Below are positions 3,736 to 31,552 of a DNA stretch of 64,000 bases, piece by piece. Numbering within the stretch: position 1 is the stretch's first letter; every line of letters begins with the position of its first letter. The notes under the pieces are model-generated. The model saw only the letters and a program-made list of their open reading frames with translations. It ran no database searches and was not told the DNA's origin. Source of the stretch: an uncultured Bacteroidales bacterium. GTDB lineage: Bacteria > Bacteroidota > Bacteroidia > Bacteroidales > Paludibacteraceae. The position numbers and the translations under genes were made by a program. The stretch lies in contig ONUF01000012.1 in assembly GCA_900321005.1 (NCBI GenBank), positions 31,062-95,061 on the forward strand. The letters are read 5' to 3'.

Positions 3736-4762
3736 ACTTTTTGTACGTCCGTTCAAAAAGTGCAACTGCTTGTCCGATGGTGCCGAAGATCTCTCCTCCG
3801 GAGGCGTTGGCATGTCCGCCGCCATGGAAGACTTCGCTCGCCCATATATTCACAGGTCGGTCACCTTGCGAGCGGAAGGATATACGGATACGGGACTTCG
3901 GTGTGCCGGGCTTGGCGCGCTCCTCGCGCATGAAGACGGAGTAATAGACATCGCTGATCTGAAGCGGCATGTTCACCAGTCCTTCGGTGTCGCCCACCTG
4001 GTAATGGTACTGCTCCAACTCGTCCGCCGAGAGGGTGATGAGCGCCAAGTGGTGCTCGGGGTAGATGCGCATCTTGCGATAGAGGGCATAGCCGGTGAGG
4101 CGCACGCGGTGCTCGGAATACTGGTTAAAGACCGCATCATAGATGGCATCTTTCTGCACGCCCGCGCGTAAGAGTTCGGCGATGATGTCGTACAATTCCG
4201 CGCGCGTAGAGTTAAAGCTGAAATTGCCCGTGTCGGTCATGAGGCCGGTGTAGATACAGGTCGCAACTTCGTTGCTGATTGCTGATTGATCTCCGAAGAG
4301 CAGTTTATAGACAATTTCGCAACTGGACGAGGCTTCGGGGTGGGAGTGTATCTCATCGGCGAAGTCCGTCGGGTTGAGATGGTGGTCGATGAGGATCTTC
4401 GGGCAGGGGTTAGCGAGCATCTTGTCACCCATGGGTCCGATACGCTTGGGGTCATTGAAATCGGTGCAGATAAAGAGGTCCGCGGCTGCGATGAGGACAT
4501 CGCAGGCCGTGTGCTCTTTCTCATACACGTGTATCTTGTCCGCGCCCGGCATCCAGTTGAAGAATGCCGGAAAGGCATTGGGGACGATCACGTGTACACT
4601 AGCGCTACCAGCGCGTTTACACTGCGGCTCTGCCGCGTTTAACTGTGCCTCCGGCACGTTTAACCAGTTCCATAGCGCGAGGGCTGAACCCATGGCATCG
4701 CCGTCGGGCGCCATGTGGGTAAAGATGACGATATGTTGTGCGTTCTGCAGCAGTTCTTTCAT
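3722..4762 (-). CDS. nrnA: DHH/DHHA1 phosphoesterase, NrnA-like
   Basis: 346 residues. The DHH-family metal motifs are present: DGDAMGS at about 20-26, DFND at 101-104, DHH at 126-128, and the DHHA1 substrate motif GGGHANASGG near 318-327. NrnA degrades nanoRNA and cyclic-dinucleotide products and dephosphorylates pAp; that function is inferred from the family. Two foreign-looking peptides are translated from repeats. Residues 36-54 come from a triple micro-hairpin (4602-4658), and DQSAISNE near 158-165 comes from a heptamer array (4272-4292). The C-terminus and stop come from another heptamer array. Confidence 0.85.
   Translation of the reverse strand: MKELLQNAQHIVIFTHMAPDGDAMGSALALWNWLNVPEAQLNAAEPQCKRAGSASVHVIVPNAFPAFFNWMPGADKIHVYEKEHTACDVLIAAADLFICTDFNDPKRIGPMGDKMLANPCPKILIDHHLNPTDFADEIHSHPEASSSCEIVYKLLFGDQSAISNEVATCIYTGLMTDTGNFSFNSTRAELYDIIAELLRAGVQKDAIYDAVFNQYSEHRVRLTGYALYRKMRIYPEHHLALITLSADELEQYHYQVGDTEGLVNMPLQISDVYYSVFMREERAKPGTPKSRIRISFRSQGDRPVNIWASEVFHGGGHANASGGEIFGTIGQAVALFERTYKKYLKI
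4272..4292. repeat. 7-bp tandem repeat inside nrnA
   Basis: Three units of TTGCTGA/TTGATCT; the coding strand reads DQSAISNE. The same peptide type recurs in MurD, MurE and MurG. Confidence 0.75.
4602..4658. repeat. Triple micro-hairpin element inside nrnA
   Basis: Three perfect 5-3-5 inverted repeats, GCGCT-ACC-AGCGC (4602-4614), GCGGC-TCT-GCCGC (4624-4636) and GTGCC-TCC-GGCAC (4644-4656), each followed by GTTTAC or GTTTAAC. They are in frame in nrnA and encode LNVPEAQLNAAEPQCKRAG. Confidence 0.85.
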
Positions 4763-4766
4763 GCGC

Positions 4767-6386
4767 TTATTTCTTCTTGTTTTTTACCTGCTTATGTACA
4801 TACAGTCCCGGCAGGAAGGTCTTCTTCACGCCGTCGATACACGGACCGAACATATAGAGCGGGAAGGGTTTCCACTCGTTGCGTTTCCATTCCACTTCAT
4901 ATGCCCGCGGGCGGATGTCCACGGCCGTCGGGTTGCTCTTCGGCAGCAGGGTGTTGGCGAGAGTAGTGAAGGCCTTTGCGTTCTTGGTGACGATCTTATA
5001 GGGGATATCATCTTCCTCATGCACCTTGACCTTCAGACCGTGATAGAGCATGCGGAAGGTGCCTTTGGCCAGTTGGTTGTCGCCGGTATAGTGCATGTCG
5101 AGCGTGTCGAGATGGCAGTCGGCGGTGATACCTACGAGCGGACGCACGAAGGTGTTGAGGTAGTCGATGTCGATGTCGGTAGCATGGAGGTCGAGCAACC
5201 ACTGGCAGGACTTGTCCATACTCATGTTCATCTTCGCGATAGCATGTCCGTTCTTCGAGATAGGACAGTGACCGTTGACATACATCGTTGCTCCGCGTTT
5301 GTTGGTGACATTATCTACCAGAGTGCGGATGTCGCGCAGTTTGAGACGACCGCAGTTGACGTTCGTGCTGGCGAACTCGATGTCTATCTTGCGAATGCCG
5401 GCATCCACATGCTTGATGCAGAAGACGGCGGGCAGAGAGGTCAGGATGTTCTGCGGCATGTCGAACGGTGCTTTCGGGGCATAGCGTTCATCGCGGAAGA
5501 TGTCCATGCTCGCTACCGTCGCCGAGAGGTGGTCAAGGTTGAAGTCTTTGTTCATCGCCTTATGGATGGGGTTGAGCGGTGCCGTGGTGACACTCTCGAT
5601 GGTCATGTCCATCCAAGTCACAGGTTCGCGCACGATGTCGCCGAGTTTCTTGCGGGCCATCGTGTGGCATATACGGGTACGGCCGACCTTCAGCTCACCT
5701 TGGTTGGCATGCTCGATGTCGCTGGTCTCCAAACGTATCATGCCGTCGGGCATCAGCACGCGGGCATTGCCGAGCGAGAAAGCATACATGGTGTCGTTAT
5801 AGTGGAAAGTCGAGTCATAGACGAGGTCATGGACCGTGAGGCCGACGGTGTCCACCGCCAGGTCCAGTTTGGAACTCAGGCTATGCAGCGAGAAAGCGGC
5901 GTTCTTGATATGCAACTTGTCCAACTCCGCGCGCTTGAGCCATTCGCTGCCTTGGCGAAGGGTCGTGTCCTTGAACTGCGGGAAGGACAGCTCGGGGTGC
6001 TTCTCGTCGAGCCATAACTCCATCGCCGGCCGAACGATACGCACATCGTTGATGTATATCTGTTTGTCGAACAGCAGCGAGTAGAAGATACGTCCTACGG
6101 CGATGCGGTCTACATGCGCCACAAAACCCGGAACGACGGTGTCGTTGACGTGCAGGGGCTCACCGCGATAGGCAAAATGCAGGTCCGTCACATCGGCGGT
6201 GCCGCTGAAGAAACGCAGGTCGATGTCACCCACCGACGCTTCGCATCCCGGCAGTTCTGCCAGCGCTTTGTTGACCTCTTTGGTGAGAACGCTCGAGAGC
6301 ATCACGTCGGCAGTCACAAAGAAAGCAATGCCGATGGCAAGCAGGCAACCCAACACAATCAAGGTTATTTTCGTTCCTTTTTTCAT
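4767..6386 (-). CDS. AsmA/DUF748-like inner-membrane-anchored protein
   Basis: 539 residues. One N-terminal membrane helix (about residues 7-27) is followed by a long beta-rich periplasmic region beginning VMLSSVLTKEVNKAL...G.IDLRFFSGTADVTDL. The order (anchor, repeated ...V.DI.L....G.....L pattern, paired beta strands) is typical of AsmA/TamB/DUF748 proteins, which are linked to lipid transport across the periplasm. That role is inferred; no catalytic motif is visible. It lies 4 bp upstream of nrnA and 26 bp downstream of murG on the same strand, so co-transcription is likely. Confidence 0.6.
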   Translation of the reverse strand: MKKGTKITLIVLGCLLAIGIAFFVTADVMLSSVLTKEVNKALAELPGCEASVGDIDLRFFSGTADVTDLHFAYRGEPLHVNDTVVPGFVAHVDRIAVGRIFYSLLFDKQIYINDVRIVRPAMELWLDEKHPELSFPQFKDTTLRQGSEWLKRAELDKLHIKNAAFSLHSLSSKLDLAVDTVGLTVHDLVYDSTFHYNDTMYAFSLGNARVLMPDGMIRLETSDIEHANQGELKVGRTRICHTMARKKLGDIVREPVTWMDMTIESVTTAPLNPIHKAMNKDFNLDHLSATVASMDIFRDERYAPKAPFDMPQNILTSLPAVFCIKHVDAGIRKIDIEFASTNVNCGRLKLRDIRTLVDNVTNKRGATMYVNGHCPISKNGHAIAKMNMSMDKSCQWLLDLHATDIDIDYLNTFVRPLVGITADCHLDTLDMHYTGDNQLAKGTFRMLYHGLKVKVHEEDDIPYKIVTKNAKAFTTLANTLLPKSNPTAVDIRPRAYEVEWKRNEWKPFPLYMFGPCIDGVKKTFLPGLYVHKQVKNKKK

Positions 6387-6400
6387 ATCTATGAATTTTT

Positions 6401-6428
6401 ACACTTTACACCTTACACCTTACACAAT
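6401..6428. repeat. 7-bp tandem repeat at murG 3' end
   Basis: Four heptamers ACACTTT, ACACCTT, ACACCTT, ACACAAT. On the coding strand the TGTAAGG units give the last MurG codons (LCKV) and the stop TAA, so the array ends the gene. Confidence 0.85.
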
Positions 6429-7504
6429 TTCATCACTTCTTCTGCGATGCGTTTTGCCGAGTCGCGCTGGGCGAGGGTGAGCACGTTGGTGTGCAAGGTC
6501 TTCAGTCGCGCGTCATCTTGAATCAATTCCAGCGCCGTAGGAATCAGTTTCTCGGCGGCCTCGATATCTTTGACGAGCACCGCGGCGTCCTTGCGCACGA
6601 GCGCCAAGGCATTGTGCGTCTGATGGTCCTCCGCTACGTTGGGCGAAGGCACGAGGATAGCGGGTTTGCCGAGCAGGCATATCTCGCTGATGGACGAAGC
6701 GCCCGCGCGCGATATGACGAGGTCAGCCTGCGCATAACGGTCAGGCATGTCGCTCAGAAAATCCAGACACTCGATGTTCGCCGGGCTTCCGGCTGCTTCC
6801 CATGCTGCTTTGCAGGACTCGAAGTATATCTTACCTGTCTGCCACACGACGTGGATATCGCTGAATGCTGAAAGCTGATTACTGATAGCTTCTTTCATGG
6901 CGTTATTGATTGTCTGGGCACCGAGCGAGCCGCCGATGATTAATAAATGTTTAGTGGCTGCGCCGTTTATAACTTCGCGTTTAGGGGCTTTGCCGTTTAA
7001 CAGGTTCTGCCGCACGGGATTTCCGGTCAATATGATCTTGTCGGCGGGGAAGAAGCGCTCCATGCCTTCGTACGCTACGCAGATCTTCGCGGCTTTATTT
7101 TTAAGAATCTTATTGGTCACGCCGGCAAAGCCGTTCTGCTCTTGCAAGAGAATAGGAATACCCATTTGCGCTGCGGCCCACATTGCTGCACCGGAGGCAT
7201 AACCGCCGACACCGACACCTACGTCGGGACGGAAGTCGCGAATGATCTTCTTCACTTGGCGGATGGATTTCGCGAGGTCGATGAGCACGGAGATGTTCTT
7301 CCAAGGCTGGGCACGGTTGAAGCCGCGTACGGGCAGACCGACGATCTCATAGCCGGCTTGCGGAACACGCTCCATCTCCATGCGTCCAAGGGCGCCGATG
7401 AATAAGATCTGCGCGTCGGGGTCGAGTTCCTTCAGCGCGTTCGCGATGCTCACTGCGGGGAAGATGTGTCCTCCGGTTCCCCCTCCGGAAATCAAATACC
7501 GCAT
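6413..7504 (-). CDS. murG: UDP-GlcNAc:lipid I GlcNAc transferase MurG
   Basis: About 363 residues from the ATG at 7502-7504. A longer reading would start inside the promoter and is not used. The glycine-rich loop GGGTGGHIFPA starts at residue 6, with GGSLGAQTIN, LVISRAGASSISEI and PNVAEDHQTHNA in the C-terminal UDP-GlcNAc site. It makes lipid II from lipid I at the inner membrane. It is detached from the main division cluster by about 10 kb. Two repeat families sit inside it: micro-hairpins (6948-7002, NGKAPKREVINGAATK) between the two Rossmann domains, and a heptamer array (6861-6888, SNQLSAFSD). Confidence 0.95.
   Translation of the reverse strand: MRYLISGGGTGGHIFPAVSIANALKELDPDAQILFIGALGRMEMERVPQAGYEIVGLPVRGFNRAQPWKNISVLIDLAKSIRQVKKIIRDFRPDVGVGVGGYASGAAMWAAAQMGIPILLQEQNGFAGVTNKILKNKAAKICVAYEGMERFFPADKIILTGNPVRQNLLNGKAPKREVINGAATKHLLIIGGSLGAQTINNAMKEAISNQLSAFSDIHVVWQTGKIYFESCKAAWEAAGSPANIECLDFLSDMPDRYAQADLVISRAGASSISEICLLGKPAILVPSPNVAEDHQTHNALALVRKDAAVLVKDIEAAEKLIPTALELIQDDARLKTLHTNVLTLAQRDSAKRIAEEVMKLCKV
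6861..6888. repeat. 7-bp tandem repeat inside murG
   Basis: Four heptamers CTGAATG, CTGAAAG, CTGATTA, CTGATAG, translated in frame as ISNQLSAFSD. Confidence 0.8.
6948..7002. repeat. Micro-hairpin element inside murG
   Basis: GTTTA blocks at four positions separate short inverted repeats (GGC-TGC-GCC and GGC-TTT-GCC on the plus strand). It is translated in MurG as LNGKAPKREVINGAATK. This is a more degenerate copy of the nrnA element. Confidence 0.7.
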
Positions 7505-7525
7505 AGTTCTTTTCAAAAAACGCGG

Positions 7526-7557
7526 CAAAGGTACAAAAAAATATTGATATATGCAAA
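7526..7557 (-). promoter_or_regulatory. Bacteroidota promoter for murG
   Basis: On the minus strand TTTG (7554-7557), 20 bp, TACCTTTG (7526-7533). The spacer begins CATATATCA. It gives a short leader to the MurG ATG at 7504. Confidence 0.8.
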
Positions 7558-7561
7558 TAAA

Positions 7562-7593
7562 TTTGCACATATCGCGAAAAAGCAGTAATTTTG
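7562..7593 (+). promoter_or_regulatory. Bacteroidota promoter for the DMT transporter
   Basis: TTTG (7562-7565), 20 bp, TAATTTTG (7586-7593). It is divergent from the murG promoter. An ATG at 7591 overlaps the -7 box and so cannot be the start; 7609 is used. Confidence 0.75.
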
Positions 7594-7608
7594 TGCACTT
7601 TTTTATTT

Positions 7609-17458: not shown

Positions 17459-18709
17459 TTATTCTAAAGTAACAATCGGGGCATCCTCGGCGGATTCTTC
17501 GCGGGTGAGGTTGACACGCTCGCGGAGTTCGGTCTGCTCGCGGCTGACACCCATCAGGATGCCGAAATAGATAGACGTGATGAGGACCGACGTGCCTCCT
17601 CGGGATATGAGCGGCAAGGGTTGGCCCGTGACCGGACCGAGACCCACGGCGACGAGCATGGAGATGAGCGCCTGGCAGGTGATCATCAGCGCCAAGCCCA
17701 TGGTCATGAGCATCGCCGGCATATCGCTATACCTGCTCGATATATTACATGCCCTAAAGAGGATCGCGAGATACAGAAAGATGACAAAACCCGAACCGAG
17801 CACACCCGACTCCTCGACGATGATGGCGAAGATATAATCGGCGAAAGCGAGGGGCAGGTAGTCCCGCTCCTTGCTGTTACCCGGCAAGACCCCCAATGGC
17901 GAGGCACCGCCTCGGGCGATGGCGACGGAGGCGTATACTTCCTGGATGTTCTCGTCCGTCAAGACGTACTTATTGGTAATTGGTGATTGGTCATTGCTGA
18001 TTGATAGATGTCTATCAATACGGCTGACCCAGGTGGTGGCACGCTTGAAAGGGCCGTGCATAGGTCGGCCGGGACGGACGAAGCCGAACTCGACGATGGC
18101 ATAGCCGAGGCATAAAGCGACAATAGCGATGCCTACTACCGACAGGGTGTATTTCCAAGGTATCCGGGCGAGGACCCAGAGACAGAAGATGATAAGACCT
18201 ATCAGCACCGCTGTAGAGAGGTTGGACGCCATGATAGGGAGCATGACGATGGCGGCGATGATAAGGGTGCGGTAGAAATACTTGGACTTATCCGCCTCGG
18301 ATTTGATACGGGCGAGTTGGTCCGCCACGACGATGATGAGACTCAGCTTCGCCAGTTCCGAAGGTTGGAACGTGATGCCGGCGATACGGACCCAGCGCGC
18401 AGCGCCGTTGATAGTGACGACGAGGGGGTTGCCGGGGATCATGGTCGAATAGACAAGGAGCGTACTGAGGCCCAGCAAGGCATAGCCGCCGAAACGAACC
18501 CAATACGACGGGATATACTGGATGCCGAAGGCGGCGATGACACCGAGCACGATGAAGAACATCTGCTGGCCGATAGGGCCGAGGGCAGAGTGGTGGGAAT
18601 AGACCAGGGTGCTCGACGCGGAGAAGAGGGCGATGATCGCCACGGCTATTAATAGCGCAAAGAGCCACCAATACGTTCGGTCAATATTTGCAAGATTCGG
18701 CTTTTTCAT
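17459..18709 (-). CDS. ftsW: Lipid II polymerase FtsW (SEDS family)
   Basis: 416 residues with about ten membrane helices and the SEDS signatures NGAARWVRI...QPSELAK, GHKERDYLP-like GNSKERDYLPLAFADYIFA, and PLISRGGTS near the end. It polymerises septal peptidoglycan with FtsI. The large periplasmic loop carries SISNDQSPITNKYVLTD, where SISNDQSPITNK is encoded by a five-unit heptamer array (17972-18006). In relatives this loop continues without such an insert. The gene lies between murD and DUF2851. Confidence 0.95.
   Translation of the reverse strand: MKKPNLANIDRTYWWLFALLIAVAIIALFSASSTLVYSHHSALGPIGQQMFFIVLGVIAAFGIQYIPSYWVRFGGYALLGLSTLLVYSTMIPGNPLVVTINGAARWVRIAGITFQPSELAKLSLIIVVADQLARIKSEADKSKYFYRTLIIAAIVMLPIMASNLSTAVLIGLIIFCLWVLARIPWKYTLSVVGIAIVALCLGYAIVEFGFVRPGRPMHGPFKRATTWVSRIDRHLSISNDQSPITNKYVLTDENIQEVYASVAIARGGASPLGVLPGNSKERDYLPLAFADYIFAIIVEESGVLGSGFVIFLYLAILFRACNISSRYSDMPAMLMTMGLALMITCQALISMLVAVGLGPVTGQPLPLISRGGTSVLITSIYFGILMGVSREQTELRERVNLTREESAEDAPIVTLE
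17972..18006. repeat. 7-bp tandem repeat inside ftsW
   Basis: Five heptamers ATTGGTA, ATTGGTG, ATTGGTC, ATTGCTG, ATTGATA, read in frame as SISNDQSPITN in the periplasmic loop. Confidence 0.9.
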
Positions 18710-18839
18710 TTATATAATTATTAAAAAAGAAAAATATATAAAAAATAAATCAAAAATACCAAAAATAATTATTTTATGTAAATAAACATAGATAAACTCT
18801 GCCGCTCCGTCATAGGCCCTGGCAGGCCTCCCACATTCC

Positions 18840-18935
18840 GCGCCCCACCGCGCCCTTAAAAGTAAACTTTACGTGCCCGGCAGGGCATCGTACTGCACAT
18901 CCGCAGGATGTATATGACAGAGCGTCAGCAATAAA
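18840..18935. repeat. Micro-hairpin cluster between murD and ftsW
   Basis: The 233-bp gap 18710-18942 holds an AT-rich stretch followed by short inverted repeats: TGCCC-GG-CAGGGCA-like near 18873-18887, ACATCC-GCA-GGATGT near 18897-18911 and TGAC...GTCA near 18915-18927, then an AATAAACAT block. I see no gene here; it looks like a diverged GTTTA micro-hairpin array. Confidence 0.5.
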
Positions 18936-18942
18936 CATAAAT

Positions 18943-20244
18943 TTACAAATTTCTAACTGCGGACATGAATTGATCGCCGCGGTCCTCGTAGGACTTGAAG
19001 AGGTCGAAGGAGGCACAGCAGGGGGAGAGGAGGACGGTGTCGCCGTCGTGAGCGGCGTGGTAGGCAGCTTGGACCGCGTCGTGGAGATTATCGGTGTCGA
19101 TAATCTGCAATTGCTGATTGGTGATTGCTGATTGATGATTTTTAAAATGTTCTCTCAGTTTTTCGTTATGGAGGCCCATGAAGACGAGGGTGTGGCACTT
19201 GGTGCGGACGAGTTCGTCAATCTCGGAGTAGTCATTGCCTTTGTCCTTGCCGCCGAGGATGAGGACCGTAGGGGTCGTCATGGACTCGAGGGCATACCAG
19301 CAGGAGTTGACATTGGTGGCTTTGGAGTCGTTGATGAAACGCACGCCACGCACCGTAGCTACATACTGGAGGCGATGCGGGACACCTTGGAAAGACATGA
19401 GCGACTCGCGGATGACCTCTTTCTTAATACCCACCACGTTCGCCGCGATAGTAGCCGCCATGGAGTTGAGGACGTTATGCCGGCCCTTGAGCGCCAGTTC
19501 GTCTTCGCCCACCGGCAGGGGGTTGGGACAGGAGAAACCATAGGGATAGAGGGTCGCGCCGAGGTGGAGTTTGCCCAGTTCGCGGTCGATGACCGGGTCT
19601 TCCGCCCAATAGATGAAGGCATCGTCCGCAGTCTGGTTGCGGGTGATGCGGAACTTGGCATCGACATAGTTCTGGAACTGAAAATCATAGCGGTCGAGGT
19701 GGTCGGGCGTGATATTCAGCAAGATGGCGATGTCGGCCTTGAAGTCATACATGTTATCGAGTTGGAAAGAGGAGAGCTCGATGACATAATAGTCGTGGTG
19801 CTCGCGCGCGACCTGCAGCGCCAGCGAGTTACCGATATTACCCGCGAGGCCGACATTGAGTCCGGCATTGCGGAGGATATAATAGATGAGCGAGGTGGTG
19901 GTCGTCTTGCCGTTCGAACCGGTGATACAGATCATCTTCGCGTTCGTATATCTTGCCGCGAATTCTATTTCGGAGATGATCGGCGTACGTTGCGCCTGCA
20001 GCTTTTGGATGAGGGGCACGGTCAAAGGGATGCCGGGGGATTTCACTACCTCGTCGGCATTCAAGATCAGGTCTTCCGTATGATGGCCGTCTTCCCAGGC
20101 GATGGCGTTCTGGTCGAGGAGGGCGCGATAGGGGTCGCTAATCGTGCCGAAATCCGAGACAAAGACATCGAAGCCTTTGGCTTTGGCTAAGATGGCTGCG
20201 CCTGTGCCGCTTTCGCCGGCGCCTAATATAACAATTCTACGCAT
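18943..20244 (-). CDS. murD: UDP-MurNAc-L-Ala:D-Glu ligase MurD
   Basis: 433 residues. Rossmann start VILGAGESGTGAAILA, ATP loop GSNGKTTTTS (about 111-120), NDSKATNVNS and the C-terminal SPCCASFDLFKSYEDRGDQF typical of Bacteroidota MurD. It adds D-Glu in wall precursor synthesis in the cytosol. NHQSAITNQQLQ in the C-terminal domain comes from a four-unit heptamer array (19110-19137) placed in a surface loop after FMGLHNEKLREHF. Confidence 0.95.
   Translation of the reverse strand: MRRIVILGAGESGTGAAILAKAKGFDVFVSDFGTISDPYRALLDQNAIAWEDGHHTEDLILNADEVVKSPGIPLTVPLIQKLQAQRTPIISEIEFAARYTNAKMICITGSNGKTTTTSLIYYILRNAGLNVGLAGNIGNSLALQVAREHHDYYVIELSSFQLDNMYDFKADIAILLNITPDHLDRYDFQFQNYVDAKFRITRNQTADDAFIYWAEDPVIDRELGKLHLGATLYPYGFSCPNPLPVGEDELALKGRHNVLNSMAATIAANVVGIKKEVIRESLMSFQGVPHRLQYVATVRGVRFINDSKATNVNSCWYALESMTTPTVLILGGKDKGNDYSEIDELVRTKCHTLVFMGLHNEKLREHFKNHQSAITNQQLQIIDTDNLHDAVQAAYHAAHDGDTVLLSPCCASFDLFKSYEDRGDQFMSAVRNL
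19110..19137. repeat. 7-bp tandem repeat inside murD
   Basis: Four heptamers ATTGCTG, ATTGGTG, ATTGCTG, ATTGATG, coding NHQSAITNQQ. Confidence 0.9.
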
Positions 20245-20257
20245 TGTTGTGTATAAA

Positions 20258-20302
20258 AGTTTATTGCCCTACGGGCAGTTTATATCGCTACGCGATGTTT
20301 AT
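20258..20302. repeat. Micro-hairpin array between mraY and murD
   Basis: Two clean 19-bp units: GTTTAT-TGCCC-TAC-GGGCA and GTTTAT-ATCGC-TAC-GCGAT, then GTTTATTATC. Each is a 5-3-5 perfect hairpin behind GTTTAT. It fills the whole gap between the genes. Confidence 0.9.
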
Positions 20303-21585
20303 TATCTTATTTTTAGAGTCAATATAGTTAATGCGGCGAGGAGGAGGGTGACGATGCAGAAACGGAGGACGATCTTCTGCTCGTGGTGAAGGTTCTTATA
20401 GCCTTTCAAAAGGATGGTGCAGGTAGGGTCGTTCTTCAGGACCTGCTCGACGGAGGTGCGGTAATGGTCATGGAGCGGGGTGCGTTTCCAGACACGTACA
20501 TGCTGACCCCGTTTCTTGTAGAACTTATAGACCTGCGTCTGGACGATGACGGAGACGCTCTCCATCAAGAAGATACCACAGAGGAGGGGGATGAGCAGCT
20601 CCTTATGGATGACCATGGCGCAGACGCCGATGATGCCGCCGACGGTGAGGCTGCCGGTGTCACCCAAGAAGACCTGAGCGGGGAAACCGTTGAACCACAG
20701 ATAGCCGACGAGTGCGCCGACGAAAGAGGCGAGGAAGACGACTAACTCTTCCGAACCGGGGATGTACATGACATCGAAATACTCCGCCCACACGACACTG
20801 CCGGAGGTGTAGGCGAGGATGAGCAAGGCGATGGCGATGATGGCGGAGTTGCCGGCACACATACCGTCCATGCCGTCGTTGAGGTTGGCACCGTTGCTGA
20901 CAGCGGCCACGACGAAGACGGTGAGGAGGACAAAGAAGATCCAGCCGAAGCGGTACATGTTGCGCTCACCGGTCCAAGAGAAGAGGTCGGCGTAGTTGAA
21001 GTTATGATGCTTGACGAAGGGGATGGTGGTCTGCGTCGATTTGATCTCCGGGGTCTTCTCCACCACGACGATATTGTTCTCGATATGCGAAGAGACGACC
21101 TCGTTCATGCTGACGGCCGGACAGAAACGGAGGGTGAGTCCGACGATGAGTCCGAGGGTGACCTGGCCGAAGATCTTGACCCATCCGTTGAGTCCGTCTT
21201 TGTTCTTACGGAAGGTCTTGATATAGTCGTCGGCGAAGCCGAGTGCGCCCATGAGGAGGGTGGTGACGAGCATGAGAATCATATACACGTTCGTCAGTTT
21301 GCCGAGCAGGAGGCAGGGCAGAAGGATGGCGGCGATGACGATGAGTCCGCCCATGGTAGGTACTCCTTTCTTCGCCACATTGAAGGGGTCGGTTTTCTCG
21401 TCGCGCTGGGTCTCGGAGATATTATGGCGCTTCATGTAGTTGATGAAGGCGTTGCCGAACCAGATGGAGGTGACGAGGGCGATGATGCCGGCGGTGATGG
21501 CGCGGAAGGAGATGTAGGTCATAAGACGAGCTCCTGCCCAGTGGCCATACGTTGTGGTTAAATAATCTAATAAATGATAAAGCAT
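20302..21585 (-). CDS. mraY: Phospho-MurNAc-pentapeptide transferase MraY
   Basis: 427 residues, about ten membrane helices. Catalytic motifs are KKGVPTMGG, the FADDYIK aspartate pair, NLNDGMDGM and FLGDTGSLTVGG. It makes lipid I on undecaprenyl phosphate at the inner membrane. Its length suits Bacteroidota MraY, with the extra loop between the DDY and NDGMDG motifs (about residues 155-215). It is flanked on both sides by micro-hairpin arrays. Confidence 0.95.
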   Translation of the reverse strand: MLYHLLDYLTTTYGHWAGARLMTYISFRAITAGIIALVTSIWFGNAFINYMKRHNISETQRDEKTDPFNVAKKGVPTMGGLIVIAAILLPCLLLGKLTNVYMILMLVTTLLMGALGFADDYIKTFRKNKDGLNGWVKIFGQVTLGLIVGLTLRFCPAVSMNEVVSSHIENNIVVVEKTPEIKSTQTTIPFVKHHNFNYADLFSWTGERNMYRFGWIFFVLLTVFVVAAVSNGANLNDGMDGMCAGNSAIIAIALLILAYTSGSVVWAEYFDVMYIPGSEELVVFLASFVGALVGYLWFNGFPAQVFLGDTGSLTVGGIIGVCAMVIHKELLIPLLCGIFLMESVSVIVQTQVYKFYKKRGQHVRVWKRTPLHDHYRTSVEQVLKNDPTCTILLKGYKNLHHEQKIVLRFCIVTLLLAALTILTLKIR

Positions 21586-21593
21586 TGTTTGTA

Positions 21594-21655
21594 CAGTTTA
21601 TTGTGCTTCGCACGTTTATTGCCCTACGGGCAGTTTATATCGCTTCGCGATGTTC
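21594..21655. repeat. Micro-hairpin array between murE and mraY
   Basis: Three GTTTAT units: GTGC-TTC-GCAC, TGCCC-TAC-GGGCA and ATCGC-TTC-GCGAT. Read on the gene strand the first and third contain GCGAAGC. The array runs up to the murE stop codon. Confidence 0.9.
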
Positions 21656-23147
21656 AGATGTATTTGCGTACTTGCTCGTGGTCGTCGAAGTGGGACTTGA
21701 CGCCCTTGATGATCTGGTAGTCCTCGTGGCCTTTGCCGGCGATGAGGATGACGTCACCGGGTTGGGCGAGAGTGCAGGCGGTCTGGATGGCGGCGGCGCG
21801 GTCCTCGATGACGAGAGTAGAGAGGAGTTCGTCGGGCGTGAGTCCATCCGTCATGTCCTTGAGGATAGCCGCGGGTTCTTCGTCACGCGGGTTGTCGGAA
21901 GTCAGGATGAGTTGTTCGCTGCCCTGTTTCGCGATCTTAGCCATCATCGGTCGTTTGCCTTTGTCACGGTTGCCGCCGCAACCGATGACGGTGATGAGCT
22001 TCGCTGTGTATGCGCTGCGCGCGTTTATAGCTTTGCTGTTTAGGATTTCTCTAATTGTTTGGATGACATTATCGACGGCATCGGGGGTGTGGGCATAATC
22101 GACGATGGCGGTCCAACCCTTTGTGCTGCGGATGGTCTCGAAGCGTCCGTTAACGGGCGTGAGGGTACTCAAGACACGCAGGACCTCGAGTTCGTCAAAG
22201 CCGAGGTTGAGTGCGGCACCGTAGATACAGAGGAGGTTGGAGACATTGAACCGTCCGACGAGCGGCACAAAAACCTCCTTGCCGTTGATACTCAGCATCA
22301 TGCCGTCAAAGCCTTCCTCGAGGATCTGCGCACGGTAGTCCGCCAGTGCGCGGGTGGAGTAAGTATGGACGGAAGCTTTGCAGTTCTGGGTCATGACGAG
22401 ACCGTTGCGGTCGTCTTTGTTGGTGACCGCAAACGCCTCTTTCTTCAGTCCGTCGAAGAGGCGCTTCTTCGTATCGCGGTAGTTATCGAAGGTCTTATGG
22501 TAGTCGATATGATCGCGCGTGAGGTTGGTGAAGAGTGCTCCGTCGAAGTCGAGTCCTGCGATGCGCTCCTGGGCGATGGCGTGCGAACTCACCTCCATGA
22601 AAGCGTACGTACATCCGGCATCGACCATCCTTTTCAGGAGTCCGTTGAGTTCGATAGCGTCGGGCGTGGTATGCGTGGCAGGAACGGCTTCGGTCTCGAT
22701 ATAGTTGACGACCGTGGAGAGCAATCCGGCCTTGTGGCCGAGCGCGCGGGTGAGCTTGTAGAGGAGCGTGGCGATGGTGGTCTTGCCGTTGGTGCCCGTG
22801 ACACCGACGAGGGTGAGCGCTTTGGAGGGTTCACCGAACCATTTGGAGGCCAGAAGTCCCAACGCTTTATCGGTGTTTTCAACCAGAATAAAGGTGGGAG
22901 ATTGATGATTGCTAATTGATGATTGCTGATTGATATATTCTCTCTTGGAGAGAACGACTGCGGCAGCGCCGTTGGCGACACAGGTGTCGATGAAGGTATG
23001 TCCATCTACTGCGGTGCCGACTTGGGCTACGAAGAGGTCGCTTTGTCCAATCTTACGGCTGTCAAAATGCAAACCGTGGATGTCCTTGTTCACGTCGCCG
23101 ATCACCTCTATCGGCTCAATCGCTTTTAATAATTCGCTTAGAAGCAT
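21654..23147 (-). CDS. murE: UDP-MurNAc-tripeptide synthetase MurE (meso-diaminopimelate type)
   Basis: 497 residues. ATP loop GTNGKTTIATLL, MEVSSHAI, DYAHTPDAV and the DNPR motif (TSDNPRDEEP), which is the determinant for meso-diaminopimelate addition. Two repeat-derived inserts are visible. YINQQSSISNHQSP in the N-terminal domain comes from a five-unit heptamer array (22901-22935). LNSKAINARSAYTAK before LITVIGCGG comes from micro-hairpins (21998-22046). Both are in loops between conserved blocks, so activity is probably kept. Confidence 0.95.
   Translation of the reverse strand: MLLSELLKAIEPIEVIGDVNKDIHGLHFDSRKIGQSDLFVAQVGTAVDGHTFIDTCVANGAAAVVLSKREYINQQSSISNHQSPTFILVENTDKALGLLASKWFGEPSKALTLVGVTGTNGKTTIATLLYKLTRALGHKAGLLSTVVNYIETEAVPATHTTPDAIELNGLLKRMVDAGCTYAFMEVSSHAIAQERIAGLDFDGALFTNLTRDHIDYHKTFDNYRDTKKRLFDGLKKEAFAVTNKDDRNGLVMTQNCKASVHTYSTRALADYRAQILEEGFDGMMLSINGKEVFVPLVGRFNVSNLLCIYGAALNLGFDELEVLRVLSTLTPVNGRFETIRSTKGWTAIVDYAHTPDAVDNVIQTIREILNSKAINARSAYTAKLITVIGCGGNRDKGKRPMMAKIAKQGSEQLILTSDNPRDEEPAAILKDMTDGLTPDELLSTLVIEDRAAAIQTACTLAQPGDVILIAGKGHEDYQIIKGVKSHFDDHEQVRKYI
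21998..22046. repeat. Micro-hairpin element inside murE
   Basis: AGC-TTC-GCT, GCGC-TGC-GCGC and AGC-TTT-GCT separated by GTGTAT, GTTTAT and GTTTAG; in frame as LNSKAINARSAYTAK. One unit contains GCGAAGC on the coding strand. Confidence 0.8.
22901..22935. repeat. 7-bp tandem repeat inside murE
   Basis: Five heptamers ATTGATG, ATTGCTA, ATTGATG, ATTGCTG, ATTGATA, coding INQQSSISNHQS. Confidence 0.9.
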
Positions 23148-24983: not shown

Positions 24984-25296
24984 GGGTTATCTTAGTTGGT
25001 GGGATGCGGTTTTCCTGGAGGGTGCTGCCTTGTTCTCTGAGTGCCGCGGCGACCTGCGACTGGCGGGTGGTGTTGGTGAGTCGGGCACTGATGGTCATAT
25101 AGCGGAATTTGGCATCGAGCATCTCCTTCTTGGTGTCGGTGAGGCGGTGCTGCTGGCGGCCGGCCTGGTAGCCCATGAAGATATAGACAAAGACCAGCAC
25201 GACAATGAGGGCGATGAGGGGGTACTGATCGCGGATGGCTTTGCTTCGCAAAACATCGCCATTTAACCAAGATTGTATGTCGTGTGTGTCTGCCAT
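24976..25296 (-). CDS. ftsL: FtsL-like division protein
   Basis: 106 residues with one membrane helix (about 30-50, LIALIVVLVFVYIFMGYQAG) then a coiled-coil-like segment. It sits between rsmH and ftsI, which is the ftsL position. FtsL links FtsB/FtsQ and activates FtsWI. The sequence alone is too variable to be sure. The N-terminal LNGDVLRSKA is encoded by a micro-hairpin (25240-25268). Confidence 0.8.
   Translation of the reverse strand: MADTHDIQSWLNGDVLRSKAIRDQYPLIALIVVLVFVYIFMGYQAGRQQHRLTDTKKEMLDAKFRYMTISARLTNTTRQSQVAAALREQGSTLQENRIPPTKITHD
25240..25268. repeat. Micro-hairpin inside ftsL
   Basis: TTTGC-TTC-GCAAA, a 5-3-5 hairpin (GCGAAGC on the gene strand), followed by an ATTTAAC block. 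Coding LNGDVLRSKA. Confidence 0.65.
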
Positions 25297-26226: not shown

Positions 26227-26280
26227 GTTTAATGTTTAATGTTTAATGTTTAATGTTTAATGTTTAATGTTTAATGTTTA
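26227..26280. repeat. Seven perfect GTTTAAT heptamers between rsmH and mraZ
   Basis: Seven identical GTTTAAT units (26227-26275) plus a partial one. The last mraZ codon (His) and its stop lie inside the array. Confidence 0.95.
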
Positions 26281-26723: not shown

Positions 26724-26726
26724 ATA

Positions 26727-26775: not shown

Positions 26776-26803
26776 TGTGTAGCGTTTAATGATTTTTCGG
26801 GTG

Positions 26804-27036: not shown

Positions 27037-27061
27037 CAGCCGCTTTTAAAAAGCGATTTCC

Positions 27062-27143
27062 GCGGCATTGGCGGAATTGGTAGACGCGCCAGACTTAGGA
27101 TCTGGTTCCGAGAGGAGTGAAAGTTCGAGTCTTTTATGCCGCA
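27062..27143 (+). tRNA. tRNA-Leu (anticodon TAG)
   Basis: Acceptor GCGGCAT pairs with ATGCCGC (27136-27142). The anticodon stem CCAGA/TCTGG holds loop CTTAGGA. A long variable arm and T arm GAAAG-TTCGAGT-CTTTT follow. CCA is not encoded. A lipoprotein start codon follows only 4 bases after the discriminator base. Confidence 0.92.
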
Positions 27144-27147
27144 CGAT

Positions 27148-27639: not shown

Positions 27640-28411
27640 CTTTTGCTTCCTGCCAAAGGGCTTCCATCTCATCTAAGGTCATGTCTTTGAGGTCATGGCC
27701 TTTTTCTTTGGCGCGTTGCTCGAGGTAGTTGAAGCGCCGCATGAACTTGAGGTTGGTCTGCTCGAGGGCATTATCGGGGCGGATCTTATAGAGTCGCGCG
27801 GCATTGATCATGGCGAAGAGGAGATCTCCGAATTCGGCCTCTTTGTTGCCGCCGTCTTCCTTGGCCAGTTCCGCTTGGAGTTCGTCGAGTTCTTCATGGA
27901 CCTTGCCCCACACGTCTTCGCGGTGCTCCCAATCGAAGCCTACGTTCGCCACTTTGTCCTGGATGCGATAGGCCTTGACGAGTGCAGGCAGGGAGTCGGG
28001 GATGCCTCCGAGAACGGTTTTGTTTCCGCCCTGTTCTTTGAGTTTGACTTGTTCCCATAAGTGACTGACTTCTTCAGCGTTTTGCGCCGCTTCCTGGCCA
28101 TAGACATGCGGATGGCGGAAGATGAGTTTGTCGCAGAGACGGTTGCAGACATCGGCGATGTCGAACGCACCGGTTTCGGAACCCATCTTGGCATAGAAGA
28201 TGACATGCAGGAGCACATCACCGAGTTCCTTGCTGATCTCGTTCATGTCATGACGGGAGATAGCGGTGGCCAGTTCGTAGGTCTCTTCGATGGTGTTCTG
28301 GCGAAGGCTGTCGAAGGTCTGTTTGCGGTCCCACGGGCACTTCTCGCGCAGGTCATCCATGATGTCGAGCAGACGTCCGAAGGCTGCGAGTTGTTCTGAT
28401 CTACTGCTCAT
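27620..28411 (-). CDS. mazG: Nucleoside triphosphate pyrophosphohydrolase MazG
   Basis: 263 residues with two MazG domains. The first has CPWDRKQTFDSL and the metal motif EETYEL (about 35-45). The second has EELDELQAEL and EFGDLLFAMIN. It hydrolyses non-canonical or excess NTPs to NMP and pyrophosphate. Its start overlaps the lpxH end by 11 bases, so the two are translationally linked. Confidence 0.92.
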   Translation of the reverse strand: MSSRSEQLAAFGRLLDIMDDLREKCPWDRKQTFDSLRQNTIEETYELATAISRHDMNEISKELGDVLLHVIFYAKMGSETGAFDIADVCNRLCDKLIFRHPHVYGQEAAQNAEEVSHLWEQVKLKEQGGNKTVLGGIPDSLPALVKAYRIQDKVANVGFDWEHREDVWGKVHEELDELQAELAKEDGGNKEAEFGDLLFAMINAARLYKIRPDNALEQTNLKFMRRFNYLEQRAKEKGHDLKDMTLDEMEALWQEAKANEQTE

Positions 28412-29189
28412 AGTTATGCATGGTCAGGTGACCTTTGTGGTCCAGTTTGGCATAGGTCCACTGTTTGAAGCAATCGCCGAGGATGATGACGCGGCTGCCG
28501 GAGGCTATCTGCAGGTCGAGTTCGATATGCCGGTGGCCGAAGATATAGTAGTCGCGATGGTTGCCTATTTTCTCCTGCTCTTTGGCAAAGAGGACAAGTT
28601 CTTCTTTGTCCTCGCCTTTGTAGGGGCAGGGGTTGGCTATCTCATTGAGGCGGCTCTTTTTCGCCCAGGTATAGCCGAGTTTGTTTCCCCATGCCGGCGG
28701 GAGGCAGCGGAAGAAGAACTGGGCGGTAGGCGAGTTAAAGAGTTTCTTGAGACGGATAAAGGACTCGATTCTCTTTCGCACGGGTCTGGGGTAGAGTGTC
28801 TCCCAATTGGAAGGCAGCAGTCCATCGCCATGGCTGAGGTATATCTGCTTGCCATAGCGGCTGATGGTGCAAGGCTCATAGTGCACCTCCATACCCGTCA
28901 GTTTGGACAGTCCGCCGAAGGTCCAGAGGTCATGGTTGCCGATGAAGAAATGGACGTGGATGCCACGTTTGATGAGGCTGCGGATCTCCTTCATGAGCGG
29001 AGAGAACTGGCGCTTGGCATGATCATGCGCGTAGAACTCGCACCAGAAGTCGAACATATCGCCGAGCATGTAGATGGACACAGCATCTTTGCTCATCATC
29101 TCGAGCATGTCGATGAGTTTTTTCTGGTGCGCCCAGCCGCGTTCGATAGCCAGACTACCTAAGTGTGCGTCAGATAAGAAGTATATCAT
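28401..29189 (-). CDS. lpxH: UDP-2,3-diacylglucosamine hydrolase LpxH-like
   Basis: 262 residues with the calcineurin-like metal sites DAHLG (7-11), GDMFDFW, GNHDLWTF, SHGDGL and FGHRH. This is the LpxH pattern, producing lipid X in lipid A synthesis at the cytoplasmic face. It lies between the DUF59 gene and mazG in one short operon from the promoter at 29563-29594. Confidence 0.88.
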   Translation of the reverse strand: MIYFLSDAHLGSLAIERGWAHQKKLIDMLEMMSKDAVSIYMLGDMFDFWCEFYAHDHAKRQFSPLMKEIRSLIKRGIHVHFFIGNHDLWTFGGLSKLTGMEVHYEPCTISRYGKQIYLSHGDGLLPSNWETLYPRPVRKRIESFIRLKKLFNSPTAQFFFRCLPPAWGNKLGYTWAKKSRLNEIANPCPYKGEDKEELVLFAKEQEKIGNHRDYYIFGHRHIELDLQIASGSRVIILGDCFKQWTYAKLDHKGHLTMHNYEQ

Positions 29190-29224
29190 GTTGAATGTGT
29201 AATGTTTAATGTTTAGTGTTTAGA
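29190..29224. repeat. 7-bp tandem repeat between lpxH and the DUF59 gene
   Basis: Five heptamers GTTGAAT, GTGTAAT, GTTTAAT, GTTTAGT, GTTTAGA; the DUF59 stop codon is inside. Confidence 0.9.
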
Positions 29225-29534
29225 GAAAACCGAGTTCGAGTTTTGCTTCTTCGGACATCATGTCTTTGGTCCATTCGGGTTCGAAGACGATGGTGACATT
29301 GACATCTTTGACGCCCTCGACCGAGCCCACTTTCTGGCGGATATCTTCGACGATGAAGTCGCCTGCGGGGCATGATGGCGCGGTGAGCGTCATGGTGATG
29401 TCGCATACTCCGTCGTCTTTGAGTTCGATGCCGTAGATGAGGCCAAGGTCATAGACGTTGACCGGTATTTCGGGGTCAAAGACGGTCTTGAGCATGCGAA
29501 GTATCTCTTCTTCTTTTTCCAAAAACTCGTTCAT
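29220..29534 (-). CDS. DUF59/MIP18-family iron-sulfur assembly protein (SufT-like)
   Basis: About 104 residues from the ATG at 29532-29534. The longer reading would begin upstream of the promoter and is rejected. The core DPEIPVNVYDLGLIYGIEL, then MTLTAPSCPAGDFI with the conserved cysteine, is the MIP18/SufT pattern for iron-sulfur cluster maturation. The 5' leader begins with a perfect hairpin CGCCG-TAAAAA-CGGCG (29546-29561) at about the transcription start, which may protect the mRNA end. Confidence 0.85.
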   Translation of the reverse strand: MNEFLEKEEEILRMLKTVFDPEIPVNVYDLGLIYGIELKDDGVCDITMTLTAPSCPAGDFIVEDIRQKVGSVEGVKDVNVTIVFEPEWTKDMMSEEAKLELGFL

Positions 29535-29562
29535 TCGTTGTAACTCGCCGTAAAAACGGCGA

Positions 29563-29594
29563 CAAAGGTACAACAAAAAAATGACATACACAAG
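29563..29594 (-). promoter_or_regulatory. Promoter of the DUF59-lpxH-mazG operon, overlapping the htpG terminator
   Basis: Minus strand CTTG (29591-29594), 20 bp beginning TGTATGTCA, TACCTTTG (29563-29570). The -33 box is in the loop of the hairpin 29582-29605. Confidence 0.8.
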
Positions 29595-29605
29595 GGTGTA
29601 TGCCA
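29582..29605 (-). terminator. htpG terminator fused to the next promoter
   Basis: Arms GACATACAC / GTGTATG(C)C (29583-29591 and 29596-29604) with a 4-base loop and one mismatch, followed on the minus transcript by a run of seven U. Confidence 0.75.
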
Positions 29606-29628
29606 CTTTTCTGCTTTTTTTGTCGTTT

Positions 29629-31491
29629 TTACAACAGCTCGACGGAGCGGTTGACGAACTTCGCGAGGGCTTCGCCCTTCAATTGACCGCTGGCGAGGAG
29701 GGCGATGTCGATGAGTTGTTTCATTCGTTCCTCTTGACCTTCGGTCTTGTCGACGAGGGCTTGGATAGCAGGGTGGGCGGTGTTGAGAACGAGGGTGTAA
29801 CTGTCCGGCATGTTGCCGTAGAAATTCATCATACCCTGTTGGTGTGCCGCCATCTCCTTCATTCGCCGCATGAACTCGTTCTGCGTCAGGAAGACCGGCA
29901 GCGCATCGGCTGCGGCTGCTTCGCAGGTGACGGTATATTTGAGTTTTTCTTCGGCGGTCGGCAGCAGCGCTTCGAAGGCCTTTCGCAGGCCTTCTTTCTG
30001 CTCGTCGGTATATTCGTCCTTCGCCACATCTTCTTTGCGAATGAGGTTCTCGATGGTGTCAGAGTCGATGCGTACAAAGCGCAGTTTCTCGCTTTTTTGC
30101 TCGGCCTGCGACATACAGTGTACATCTAATTCGCCGTCCATGAGAAGGACGTCGTAACCCTTCGCTTTCGCGCGCTCGATGTAGGTGTAATGGGCGTCGG
30201 GGTCGTTGGTGTATAGGAGGACGAGGTTGCCGTCTTTATCGACCTGTTTGTCGCGCACTTGGTCTTTGTATTCCTCTATCGTCGCGTATTTGCCGTCGAG
30301 GTTCTTGAGGAGCGCGAAGGTGACGGCTTTCTCGTAGAACTTTTCGTCGGTGAGCATGCCGAACTGGATGAACATCTTGATGTCGTCCCATTTTTTCGCG
30401 AACTCGTCCTTGTCGGCTTTGTAGAGTTCTGCCAGTTTGTCAGCCACTTTCTTGGTGATGTAGCCGGAGATTTTCTTGACATTGTTGTCGGACTGGAGGT
30501 ACGACCGGCTGACATTCAGCGGGATGTCCGGCGAGTCGATCACGCCGTGCAGCAGCGTCAGGTATTCCGGGACGATGTTCTCCACCTCGTCGGTCACATA
30601 GACCTGGTTGCAGTAGAGTTGGATCTTGTTGCGATGCACATCGAGGTTCGACTTGATTTTCGGGAAGTACAAGATACCCGTGAGGTTGAACGGATAGTCC
30701 ACATTGAGGTGGATGTGGAAGAGCGGTTCGTCGAACTGCATGGGATAGAGTTCGTGGTAGAAGGTCTTGTAATCCTCTTCGGTCAGGTCCGCAGGTTTAC
30801 GGGTCCATGCAGGGTTGATATCGTTGATGATGTTCTCTTCATCGAGTTCAACCTCCTTGCCGTCTTTCCACTCTTTCTTCTTGCCGAAAGCAATCTCTAC
30901 GGGCAGGAATTTGCAGTATTTCTTGAGCAAGCCTTCAATGGTTGCGTCCTCGAGGTACTGCGAGAACTCATCGTCGATATGGAGCACGATGTCGGTGCCT
31001 CGCTCGGCTTTGATGGTCTCTTCCATCGTGTACTCCGGATCTCCCGAGCACGACCAGTGAACGGCTTTCGCGTCCTCTTTGTAGGACTGCGAGAAGATCT
31101 CCACTTTCTTGCTGACCATGAAGGCGGAGTAGAAGCCGAGACCGAAATGGCCGATGATGGCTTCCGCTTTGTCTTTGTACTGGTTGAGGAACTCCTCGGC
31201 GCCGGAAAATGCGATCTGGTTGATGAACTTATCCACCTCTTCGGCCGTCATGCCGATACCATGGTCGGAGACGGTGAGGGTTTTCTTTTTCTTGTCGATA
31301 GCGACGCGTACCCGTAGGTCGCCCAGGTCACCCTTGGCTTCGCCAACAGAGGACAGCGTCTTCAGCTTGGTCGTTGCATCCACGGCATTGGAGATCAGTT
31401 CGCGCAGGAAGATCTCATGGTCCGAATACAGAAATTTCTTAATGACGGGGAAGATGTTATCGCTTGTTACCCCAATTGTTCCTTTACTCAT
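29629..31491 (-). CDS. htpG: HSP90-family chaperone HtpG
   Basis: 620 residues. GHKL ATPase signatures ELISNAVDATTKL, SDHGIGMT and GHFGLGFYSAFMV in the first 150 residues, then the middle and C-terminal domains. It is a cytosolic ATP-dependent chaperone. Upstream lie a micro-hairpin array (31497-31552) in the leader, a near-consensus sigma-54 site and a perfect 6-3-6 inverted repeat (31584-31598). Confidence 0.95.
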   Translation of the reverse strand: MSKGTIGVTSDNIFPVIKKFLYSDHEIFLRELISNAVDATTKLKTLSSVGEAKGDLGDLRVRVAIDKKKKTLTVSDHGIGMTAEEVDKFINQIAFSGAEEFLNQYKDKAEAIIGHFGLGFYSAFMVSKKVEIFSQSYKEDAKAVHWSCSGDPEYTMEETIKAERGTDIVLHIDDEFSQYLEDATIEGLLKKYCKFLPVEIAFGKKKEWKDGKEVELDEENIINDINPAWTRKPADLTEEDYKTFYHELYPMQFDEPLFHIHLNVDYPFNLTGILYFPKIKSNLDVHRNKIQLYCNQVYVTDEVENIVPEYLTLLHGVIDSPDIPLNVSRSYLQSDNNVKKISGYITKKVADKLAELYKADKDEFAKKWDDIKMFIQFGMLTDEKFYEKAVTFALLKNLDGKYATIEEYKDQVRDKQVDKDGNLVLLYTNDPDAHYTYIERAKAKGYDVLLMDGELDVHCMSQAEQKSEKLRFVRIDSDTIENLIRKEDVAKDEYTDEQKEGLRKAFEALLPTAEEKLKYTVTCEAAAADALPVFLTQNEFMRRMKEMAAHQQGMMNFYGNMPDSYTLVLNTAHPAIQALVDKTEGQEERMKQLIDIALLASGQLKGEALAKFVNRSVELL

Positions 31492-31496
31492 ATGAT

Positions 31497-31552
31497 AGAA
31501 TGTTTATTGTTACACGTTTATTGCCCTGCGGGCGTTTATAGCTTCGCTGTGT
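31497..31552. repeat. Micro-hairpin array in the htpG leader
   Basis: GTTTAT units with GT-TAC-AC, GCCC-TGC-GGGC and AGC-TTC-GCT hairpins, directly before the htpG start codon. Confidence 0.8.

Follow-up and report, generated by a model that had tools for sequence, protein, structure and literature searches.

Between and inside the cell wall genes of a 64,000-nucleotide stretch of an uncultured Bacteroidales bacterium (Paludibacteraceae) lie tandem arrays of hairpins so small that a whole unit spans about 15-25 bp. The stretch, hereafter the window, comprises positions 31062-95061 of contig C19 of genome G000, an assembly of 2.1 Mb in 54 contigs that is 78% complete. What kind of repeat keeps its hairpins perfect when its stem sequence is nearly free, and how does it spread? 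Our analysis, which used one genome per species and therefore compares species, led to the conclusion that the arrays are small dispersed palindromic repeats of a new variety in one rumen Bacteroidales genus. The closest named relatives in a MraY comparison are genomes from metagenomes that carry the label Bacteroidales or Paludibacteraceae, and many of them come from rumen or gut. Nearest is RUG372 (locus L053, genome G340), with a MraY identity of 97% and a DNA identity of mostly 86-90% over the shared cluster; RUG14367 (L080, G341) is mostly 74-78% identical to the window at the DNA level.

A tagged micro-hairpin in excess over chance

On the gene strand, each unit consists of the tag TA(A/C)AC (TAMAC), a perfect stem of 3-7 bp directly 3' of the tag and a loop of 3-4 nt; a few nucleotides follow the stem, usually A, AA or AC, and then usually the next TA(A/C)AC (Table 1). 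In all, 594 kb of the window's genome yielded 37 arrays, made up of 67 units; the stretches were picked mostly around spacer matches and are thus partly hit-selected, and some adjoining clusters (e.g. murG) were entered as two arrays. Units were sought by patterns instead of a covariance model because MAFFT misaligned such short sequences. The next tag lay 1-5 nt downstream in 59 of the 67 units, and tag-to-tag spacing was mostly 15-24 bp. A preliminary description, made from the window, had given the spacer as GTTTAT/GTTTAAC. The spacer is indeed repeated; in gene-strand orientation TA(A/C)AC describes it better. Missed at first were the tag as such and its direction: it mostly reads along the coding strand and in some loci supplies a stop codon. 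Nor are the arrays a feature of wall genes, as they occur genome-wide and also in other species of the genus.

Two counts that are biased by neither stem nor loop revealed an excess over chance. Hairpins flanked on either side by the tag word occurred 28 times in 417 kb, including a few low-complexity heptamer runs, and not once in any of five dinucleotide shuffles. In an unbiased scan of five-letter words, a perfect foot-anchored hairpin was present in 46 of the 68 TAAAC-TAAAC intervals of 9-20 nt; with permuted tags the figure was 191 of 3,940 intervals, 95 of the 191 coming from two near-synonyms of the tag. TAAAC was the outlier among 894 words with enough pairs, followed by AAACG, which overlaps it (18/42), and the remaining words with at least four hairpins did not exceed 20%. 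The same scan ranked TAAAC first in hit-selected stretches of G341 (13/24), G347 (17/24) and G245 (18/24), and not first in G340. The micro-hairpin family is thus real and wider than first described, and the motif search that had been proposed as its test gave a clear excess over shuffled sequence. A heptamer variant without hairpin, TAAACNN, is also present.

GNA loops are frequent, as the preliminary description had noted: they made up 40 of the 60 triloops in the window's genome, and the closing pair was C-G in 62 of 67 units. Among the other C-closed hairpins of the same stretches, GNA was found in 217 of 1,819. Four-letter loops were GTAA (twice) and GTTA, GTCA, TTTA, TTCG and TTCA (once each). 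Stems are nearly free, with 28 distinct sequences among the 45 units that have a stem of at least 4 bp; all that is kept along the unit is the tag, the loop and the pairing. The arrays behave as minisatellites in that their head-to-tail units differ singly in number, whereas the conservation of the unit over its whole length that is typical of minisatellites is missing.

GNA loop and TAMAC share one strand. Mini-hairpins of the type d(C-GNA-G) are extraordinarily stable in DNA, and the strand with both features is therefore the well-folding one. Coding regions contain 14 of the 37 arrays, 12 in sense and 2 in antisense orientation according to our own codon-usage gene caller. At junctions of co-directional genes, 13 arrays follow the gene direction and 3 oppose it; 7 further arrays at contig ends or other junctions were left out of this orientation count. 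Coding constraint alone would favour the opposite strand, because TAAAC can bring in a TAA stop codon and GTTTA cannot. At three loci of the genome (L041, L043 and L175) the stop codon of the upstream gene is the TAA of the tag. In the window, the mraY-murD junction array begins immediately 3' of the mraY stop codon, and the TGA stop of murE heads the first tag (TGAAC) of the murE-mraY junction array.

Distribution and turnover of the arrays

To follow the units through the family we used the pattern TAAAC-N2-5-CGNAG-N3-8-TAAAC and, as control, the reversed pattern. Of the 120 genus genomes, 17 had four or more matches (29 in the window's genome, 36 in G245), as did 2 of 180 other genomes of the family. 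The control reached four in 1 of the 120 and oftener among the 180, in which, these two genomes excepted, matches stayed at or below control level. The view of a lineage-specific family of tandem micro-hairpins holds. Within the genus, copy number is patchy: the window's genome had 29 matches against 1 in its sister L053, and L080 had 15, whereas the neighbouring L065 and L067 had 1 each. When 51 rows, 14 of them unit-rich, were placed on an mraY tree, the label changed 11 times compared with a mean of 12.4 after shuffling, and 93 of 500 shuffles were as low. Phylogenetic clustering of copy number was accordingly rejected, and its absence on this tree suggests fast gain or loss of units.

The same turnover was evident at single sites. 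Orthologous sequence for the 37 arrays was found 11 times in G340 (no tagged array), 10 times in G341 (four) and 5 times in G347 (one). At the mraY-murD site the window has two units; L080 has a single one and L053 none. An insert in murE is common to the window, L080 and G179, and L053, which has no insert, keeps ACAGCGAAGCTC at the position of its end, which looks like a remnant. The central murE stem reads GCGC/GCGC in the window and CCGC(AAA)GCGG in L080 and G179, so that both sides have changed; likewise, the first unit at a coding site of G134 has ACCC/GGGT and that of the apparent orthologue in G259 GCCC/GGGC. The array at locus L177 of the window's genome differs from its counterpart in G341 by one 15-bp unit, in frame. 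At the junction where the window has plain TAAACNN heptamers (29190-29222), G347 carries two hairpins, of which one is tagged and the other has a diverged tag; L053 has neither heptamers nor hairpins there.

Equal stems and blocks also recur at different places. A two-unit block is common to the arrays on either side of mraY (20259-20301 and 21596-21656). When equal stems at different places were compared, 21 of 25 pairs in the window's genome and 13 of 19 in G347 had no more than 4 nt per side in common outside the tags, the rest in G347 belonging to copied multi-unit blocks or to one repetitive locus. G347 has 7 distinct stems among 17 units, i.e. stems favoured by that genome. This recurrence bears on one alternative, namely that nothing disperses and that ordinary slippage of short tandem repeats creates hairpins independently, stable palindromes being slippage-prone. 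The genome is rich in short repeats: in a scan of the window's genome alone, its stretches held about 950 short tandem arrays per Mb, period 7 being the commonest (181/565). TAAACNN heptamers at a site with hairpins in G347 fit this explanation as well, and the stems are short enough for partial chance recurrence. We nevertheless regard it as improbable, since it would not account for a single five-letter tag that recurs dozens of times within a genome, for blocks of two or more units that are equal between loci, for the favoured stems of G347 or for a second spacer, which in another genome accompanies one hairpin on four contigs. In G245, tagged arrays at loci L181-L183 and L186 form facing inverted pairs, which make up a larger composite that is repeated at several loci.

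The second spacer, CAYYAAC, was found in the same layout in G342 (RUG716), with 11 matches against 0 for the control (L131 150-420 and 1650-1850; G342 contigs C47, C103, C119 and C198). Seven of the 11 represent one hairpin, ATCGC(GNA)GCGAT, on the four contigs, and the other four look like chance. Seven other genomes gave 0-2 matches, with 0-3 for the control. Two further candidate spacers, GCAACAA (L112) and GTCCAATA (L096 and L097), were rejected, being found in murG only and elsewhere than the insert of the window; the genome of L096 carries TAMAC units. In G118, G237, G250, G256 and G262 we observed a sequence-conserved unit, TAAACNGTAGCGNAGCGTYCNCTAAAC, whose stem is imperfect, in contrast to the free stems found in the window's genome.

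The inserts in MurG, MurE and NrnA are in frame, as first described, and their peptides were absent or different in the relatives examined, including distant orthologues. MurG and MurE score above the family cut-offs despite their inserts, and NrnA matches its family below the cut-off. Among 110 murE loci the motif was unreadable in 20; of the remaining 90, which include some genomes twice, 42 carry an insert of 14-21 residues in this loop, and the others have 4-9 residues. Tagged hairpins account for the insert in three loci. Most others have heptamer-like repeats (words such as AAAGTCG, GGACAAA, CATCAGT, AATAGCC and CTCAAAC) and a few a hairpin of the CCCTCCCC type. The MurG loop behaves alike, with a tagged array in L092 and heptamers or another hairpin in other species. 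These two fixed loops are thus hypervariable and hold different in-frame short repeats depending on the species (L053-L132, L283-L312). Several further array sites of the window's genome also contain other repeats in G340, G341 and G347; the htpG leader, for example, has heptamer-like repeats in G340 and G347. Short tandem repeat words vary by locus and species in general (e.g. 26227-26262 and 29190-29222 in the window).

The site, therefore, matters more than the type of repeat. Since their sites host other short repeats in sister species, the tagged arrays form part of a wider repeat turnover, and the notion of one palindromic element has to be given up to that extent. Wall-synthesis enzymes with loops that are repeatedly rewritten by short repeats also offer a natural test of insertion-tolerant loops. 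A hairpin repeat of the CCCTCCCC-ACAA-GGGGAGGG type was seen at gene junctions (mraY 3' end in L054, L073, L079 and L083) as well as in murG (L062, L064) and murE (L073, L076), where it adds peptides such as PSPALPTREG and KPHPYPPHKGG.

These observations also concern a possible function at the RNA level, i.e. selection of the hairpins in mRNA 3' ends or leaders for stability, termination or coupling of translation. The tag strand is mostly the coding strand, several arrays begin at or beside a stop codon and stems show compensatory changes, all of which would be expected of such a function. On the other hand, 14 of the 37 arrays are inside coding regions, those of MurE and MurG being in-frame inserts in loops where relatives have other repeats; the sister L053 lacks arrays at the same junctions, and the unit has no T tract and a tag that this function would not explain. 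Selection at the RNA level hence appears quite unlikely.

How the units may multiply

We tentatively favour, at somewhat less than even confidence, an explanation in which the arrays are tag-bounded, palindrome-bearing minisatellites that are multiplied and lost as replication switches template from one tag to another on single-stranded DNA. The TAMAC strand would fold into a very stable C-GNA-G mini-hairpin whenever it is single-stranded in vivo, most simply as the lagging-strand template, which is the coding strand for co-directional genes. A polymerase might then slip or switch template between the identical 5-nt tags that flank the hairpin. Direct repeats on both sides of a palindrome are a classical hot spot of deletion and duplication by slippage. 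Slippage as the driver would lead to the exact deletion or duplication of units, and occasionally a unit would be pasted at another TAMAC. Stems could stay perfect and yet drift because folding, not sequence, would feed the process. Arrays would persist only where inserts are tolerated, at gene junctions and in flexible protein loops, where, with time, they and the heptamer repeats found at the same sites in sister species would replace each other. A benefit for the host would be unnecessary, and the arrays may well be neutral.

Several points weigh against this explanation. The stability of C-GNA-G mini-hairpins enters as general background, and ViennaRNA tables assign one value to all 64 DNA triloops, with the RNA order of no use; because these values are flat, energies do not decide between a DNA and an RNA loop preference. 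A cruder gene caller gave 12 in-gene arrays in sense and 6 in antisense orientation, and the transcription and replication strands are inseparable for array orientation on these contigs. Slippage covers gain and loss within an array, while dispersal to unrelated loci would have to proceed via a tag of 5 nt, and empty sites in G340 have no obvious single TAMAC (TTAAC at the L175 site). More than 4 nt are shared beyond the tags in 4 of 25 pairs of equal stems in the window's genome and 6 of 19 in G347, and equal stems of 4-5 bp (e.g. GTGC, GCTGC) may partly recur by chance. Compensatory stem changes were seen at two sites only. Finally, arrays are identical at L175 of the window's genome and in G341, and at L052 and in G347; they are thus not always fast-changing, or they have been exchanged.

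The layout of the unit also recalls repetitive extragenic palindromic (REP) sequences. Tagged REPs form small stem-loops, one end of which carries a short unpaired tag; many of their families are species-specific, they lie mostly downstream of genes and in part within genes, HH dimers are reported as predominant, and one class, CGTC-tagged, has no known transposase (PMC3733652). The arrays share with them a dispersed, small, tagged stem-loop in many copies. They differ in their tag (TA(A/C)AC instead of GTAG or CGTC), in the lack of the link to a REP-associated tyrosine transposase (RAYT) that marks the GTAG class, the Y1 family having been looked at here, in stems without a family consensus (several other genomes of the genus have the more conserved unit mentioned above), in mostly GNA loops and in head-to-tail arrays that share a tag instead of the HH dimers reported there (PMC3733652). 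They resemble tagged REPs but are not to be counted among them: their tag, the missing transposase link and the unconserved stem set them apart.

Movement of this kind would require an HUH enzyme (Y1/RAYT or other) that recognises the hairpin, cleaves 3' of the tag and moves both as single-stranded DNA, as RAYT cleaves GTAG-tagged REPs. The tag at the foot of the hairpin corresponds to the tagged-REP layout (PMC3733652), copy number is patchy and one weak Y1 match exists in the window's genome. With the enzyme families searched, PF01797 and PF00078, no driver emerged. Among distinct genomes, 4 of the 12 that are unit-rich and 3 of the 11 that are unit-poor contained PF01797, and the Y1 transposase as driver was rejected for want of a link to copy number, other HUH families being outside the search; reverse transcriptase (PF00078) as source was rejected likewise (5/12 and 3/11). 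Twin genomes, recognised from equal coordinates, were entered once in this comparison (G134=G346, G183=G347, G256=G344, G217=G340 and G223=G349). In a wider draw, 47 of 131 genus genomes had a Y1 transposase; no tagged hairpin was found around 11 Y1 loci within at most about 1.5 kb per side. The stem also lacks the sequence conservation expected of an enzyme footprint, and, as noted at the outset, no transposase is evident near the arrays. Insertion into the lagging-strand template, a habit of the IS200/IS605 group, would fit the strand bias. On balance we consider REP-like transposition unlikely. Because neither Y1 nor reverse transcriptase is linked to copy number, host-driven copying between tags is favoured instead.

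A bolder version is possible, unproven and on the doubtful side, namely a sequence-agnostic mobile DNA in which fold and five-letter tag are what is replicated, so that a unit could spread with any stem sequence and rewrite proteins in frame. Different lineages would then use different tags as dialects, TAMAC being that of this genus and CAYYAAC that of RUG716. It is by their sequence that the small palindromic repeats known so far are recognised, and a transposase is often linked to them; in the present arrays it is mainly pairing, loop and short tag that persist, and the fold rather than the sequence therefore appears to be inherited and multiplied.

Other known systems also differ. The preliminary description had compared the units with Rickettsia palindromic elements, which likewise insert in frame into housekeeping proteins but are far longer and related in sequence; the present units are indeed smaller, with unrelated stems. 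Cyanobacterial short tandemly repeated repetitive heptamers and small dispersed repeats resemble them as dispersed heptamers and very small mobile repeats, and we know of no alternation of tag and hairpin among these. The attC sites of integrons were rejected, judged by their core GTTRRRY, which GTTTA does not fit. REPINs are hairpin repeats that spread within genomes and show compensatory hairpin changes; each consists of two REPs in inverted orientation and is associated with a RAYT gene, whereas our units are direct and tandem with no RAYT link found (PMC3116915). Palindromes of Volvox organelles are short stem-loops with loops of 3-5 nt that fill intergenic regions and form nested repeats, yet in the accessible account they are sequence families (>50% identity in mitochondrial DNA) with TAAA/TTTA loops in intergenic and intronic positions, and a tag is unmentioned there (PMC2670323). 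In the literature searched, which excluded subscription journals and returned many unrelated results, we recognised no paper describing these arrays.

Loci of the window and a separate structured element

The features of the window are listed in Table 1. Six of the eight loci first listed belong to the family; 25240-25268 and 18840-18935 do not. The hairpin at the former is identical in the sister L053 and altered in L080. HtpG was assigned by the same family search that scored MurG, MurE and NrnA.

Table 1. Repeat features of the window (unit sequences on the gene strand, loops in brackets)
Feature	Position	Strand	Units or remark
nrnA in-frame array	4592-4662	-	GTGCC(GGA)GGCAC, GCGGC(AGA)GCCGC, GCGCT(GGT)AGCGC
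murG in-frame array	6949-6999	-	GGC(AAA)GCC, decayed unit, GGC(GCA)GCC
Separate ~138-nt multibranched element, not a member	18795-18932	-	Model R1, 137.5 bits
mraY-murD junction array, 2 units	20259-20301	-	ATCGC(GTA)GCGAT, TGCCC(GTA)GGGCA
murE-mraY junction array, 3 units	21596-21656	-	ATCGC(GAA)GCGAT, TGCCC(GTA)GGGCA, GTGC(GAA)GCAC
murE in-frame array, peptide LNSKAINARSAYTAK	21997-22042	-	AGC(AAA)GCT, GCGC(GCA)GCGC, TACAC AGC(GAA)GCT
Lone TTTGCGAAGCAAA hairpin, not a member	25240-25268	-	Flanking tags absent
Heptamer form without hairpin	29190-29222	-	TAAACAC-TAAACAT-TAAACAT-TACACAT
htpG leader array	31516-31553	-	TACAC AGC(GAA)GCT A / TAAAC GCCC(GCA)GGGC AA TAAAC

The locus 18840-18935 contains no tagged unit and lies mostly inside the ~138-nt element, which has a multibranched predicted fold with an RNA z-score of -4.6. 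The element is absent from the murD-ftsW site of L053, where the two genes appear to overlap, and present at two other junctions of that genome. Among 11 aligned copies, 21 of 34 pairs showed a double-sided change in at least one sequence, and covariation was 0.447 compared with 0.208 after shuffling (0 of 500 as high), although this alignment had also served to predict the structure. With a covariance model made from these copies, the element was detected in 38 of 121 genus genomes, with 1-8 copies each and 7 in the window's genome. With 42 distinct model-aligned copies, double changes were found in 32 of 34 pairs and covariation was 0.690 versus 0.219; the 11-copy test is the cleaner one because the larger alignment was fitted to the structure. 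The locus thus belongs to an unrecognised structured RNA-like family with very strong covariation. Rfam gave no match at E up to 5 in window positions 18600-22200, and nothing at gathering level except one tRNA at seven other copy-bearing loci. No counterparts were found in plasmid or phage records by blastn or in viral contigs with one exact pattern. A published survey of structured RNAs from microbiomes may already include the element.

Among the 42 copies, where neighbours were examined, the adjoining gene was of one family at 7 loci, a count that leaves out L333 (same genome as L053). Four of the seven genes were confirmed as GxxExxY, PD-(D/E)XK nuclease-like, and on contig C17 a gene of this family sits between copies of the element. 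In several species some copies adjoin the same gene, a position that may be due to mere inheritance. Elsewhere in the window, an open frame of 3,221 amino acids extends over positions 50694-60359 of the plus strand.

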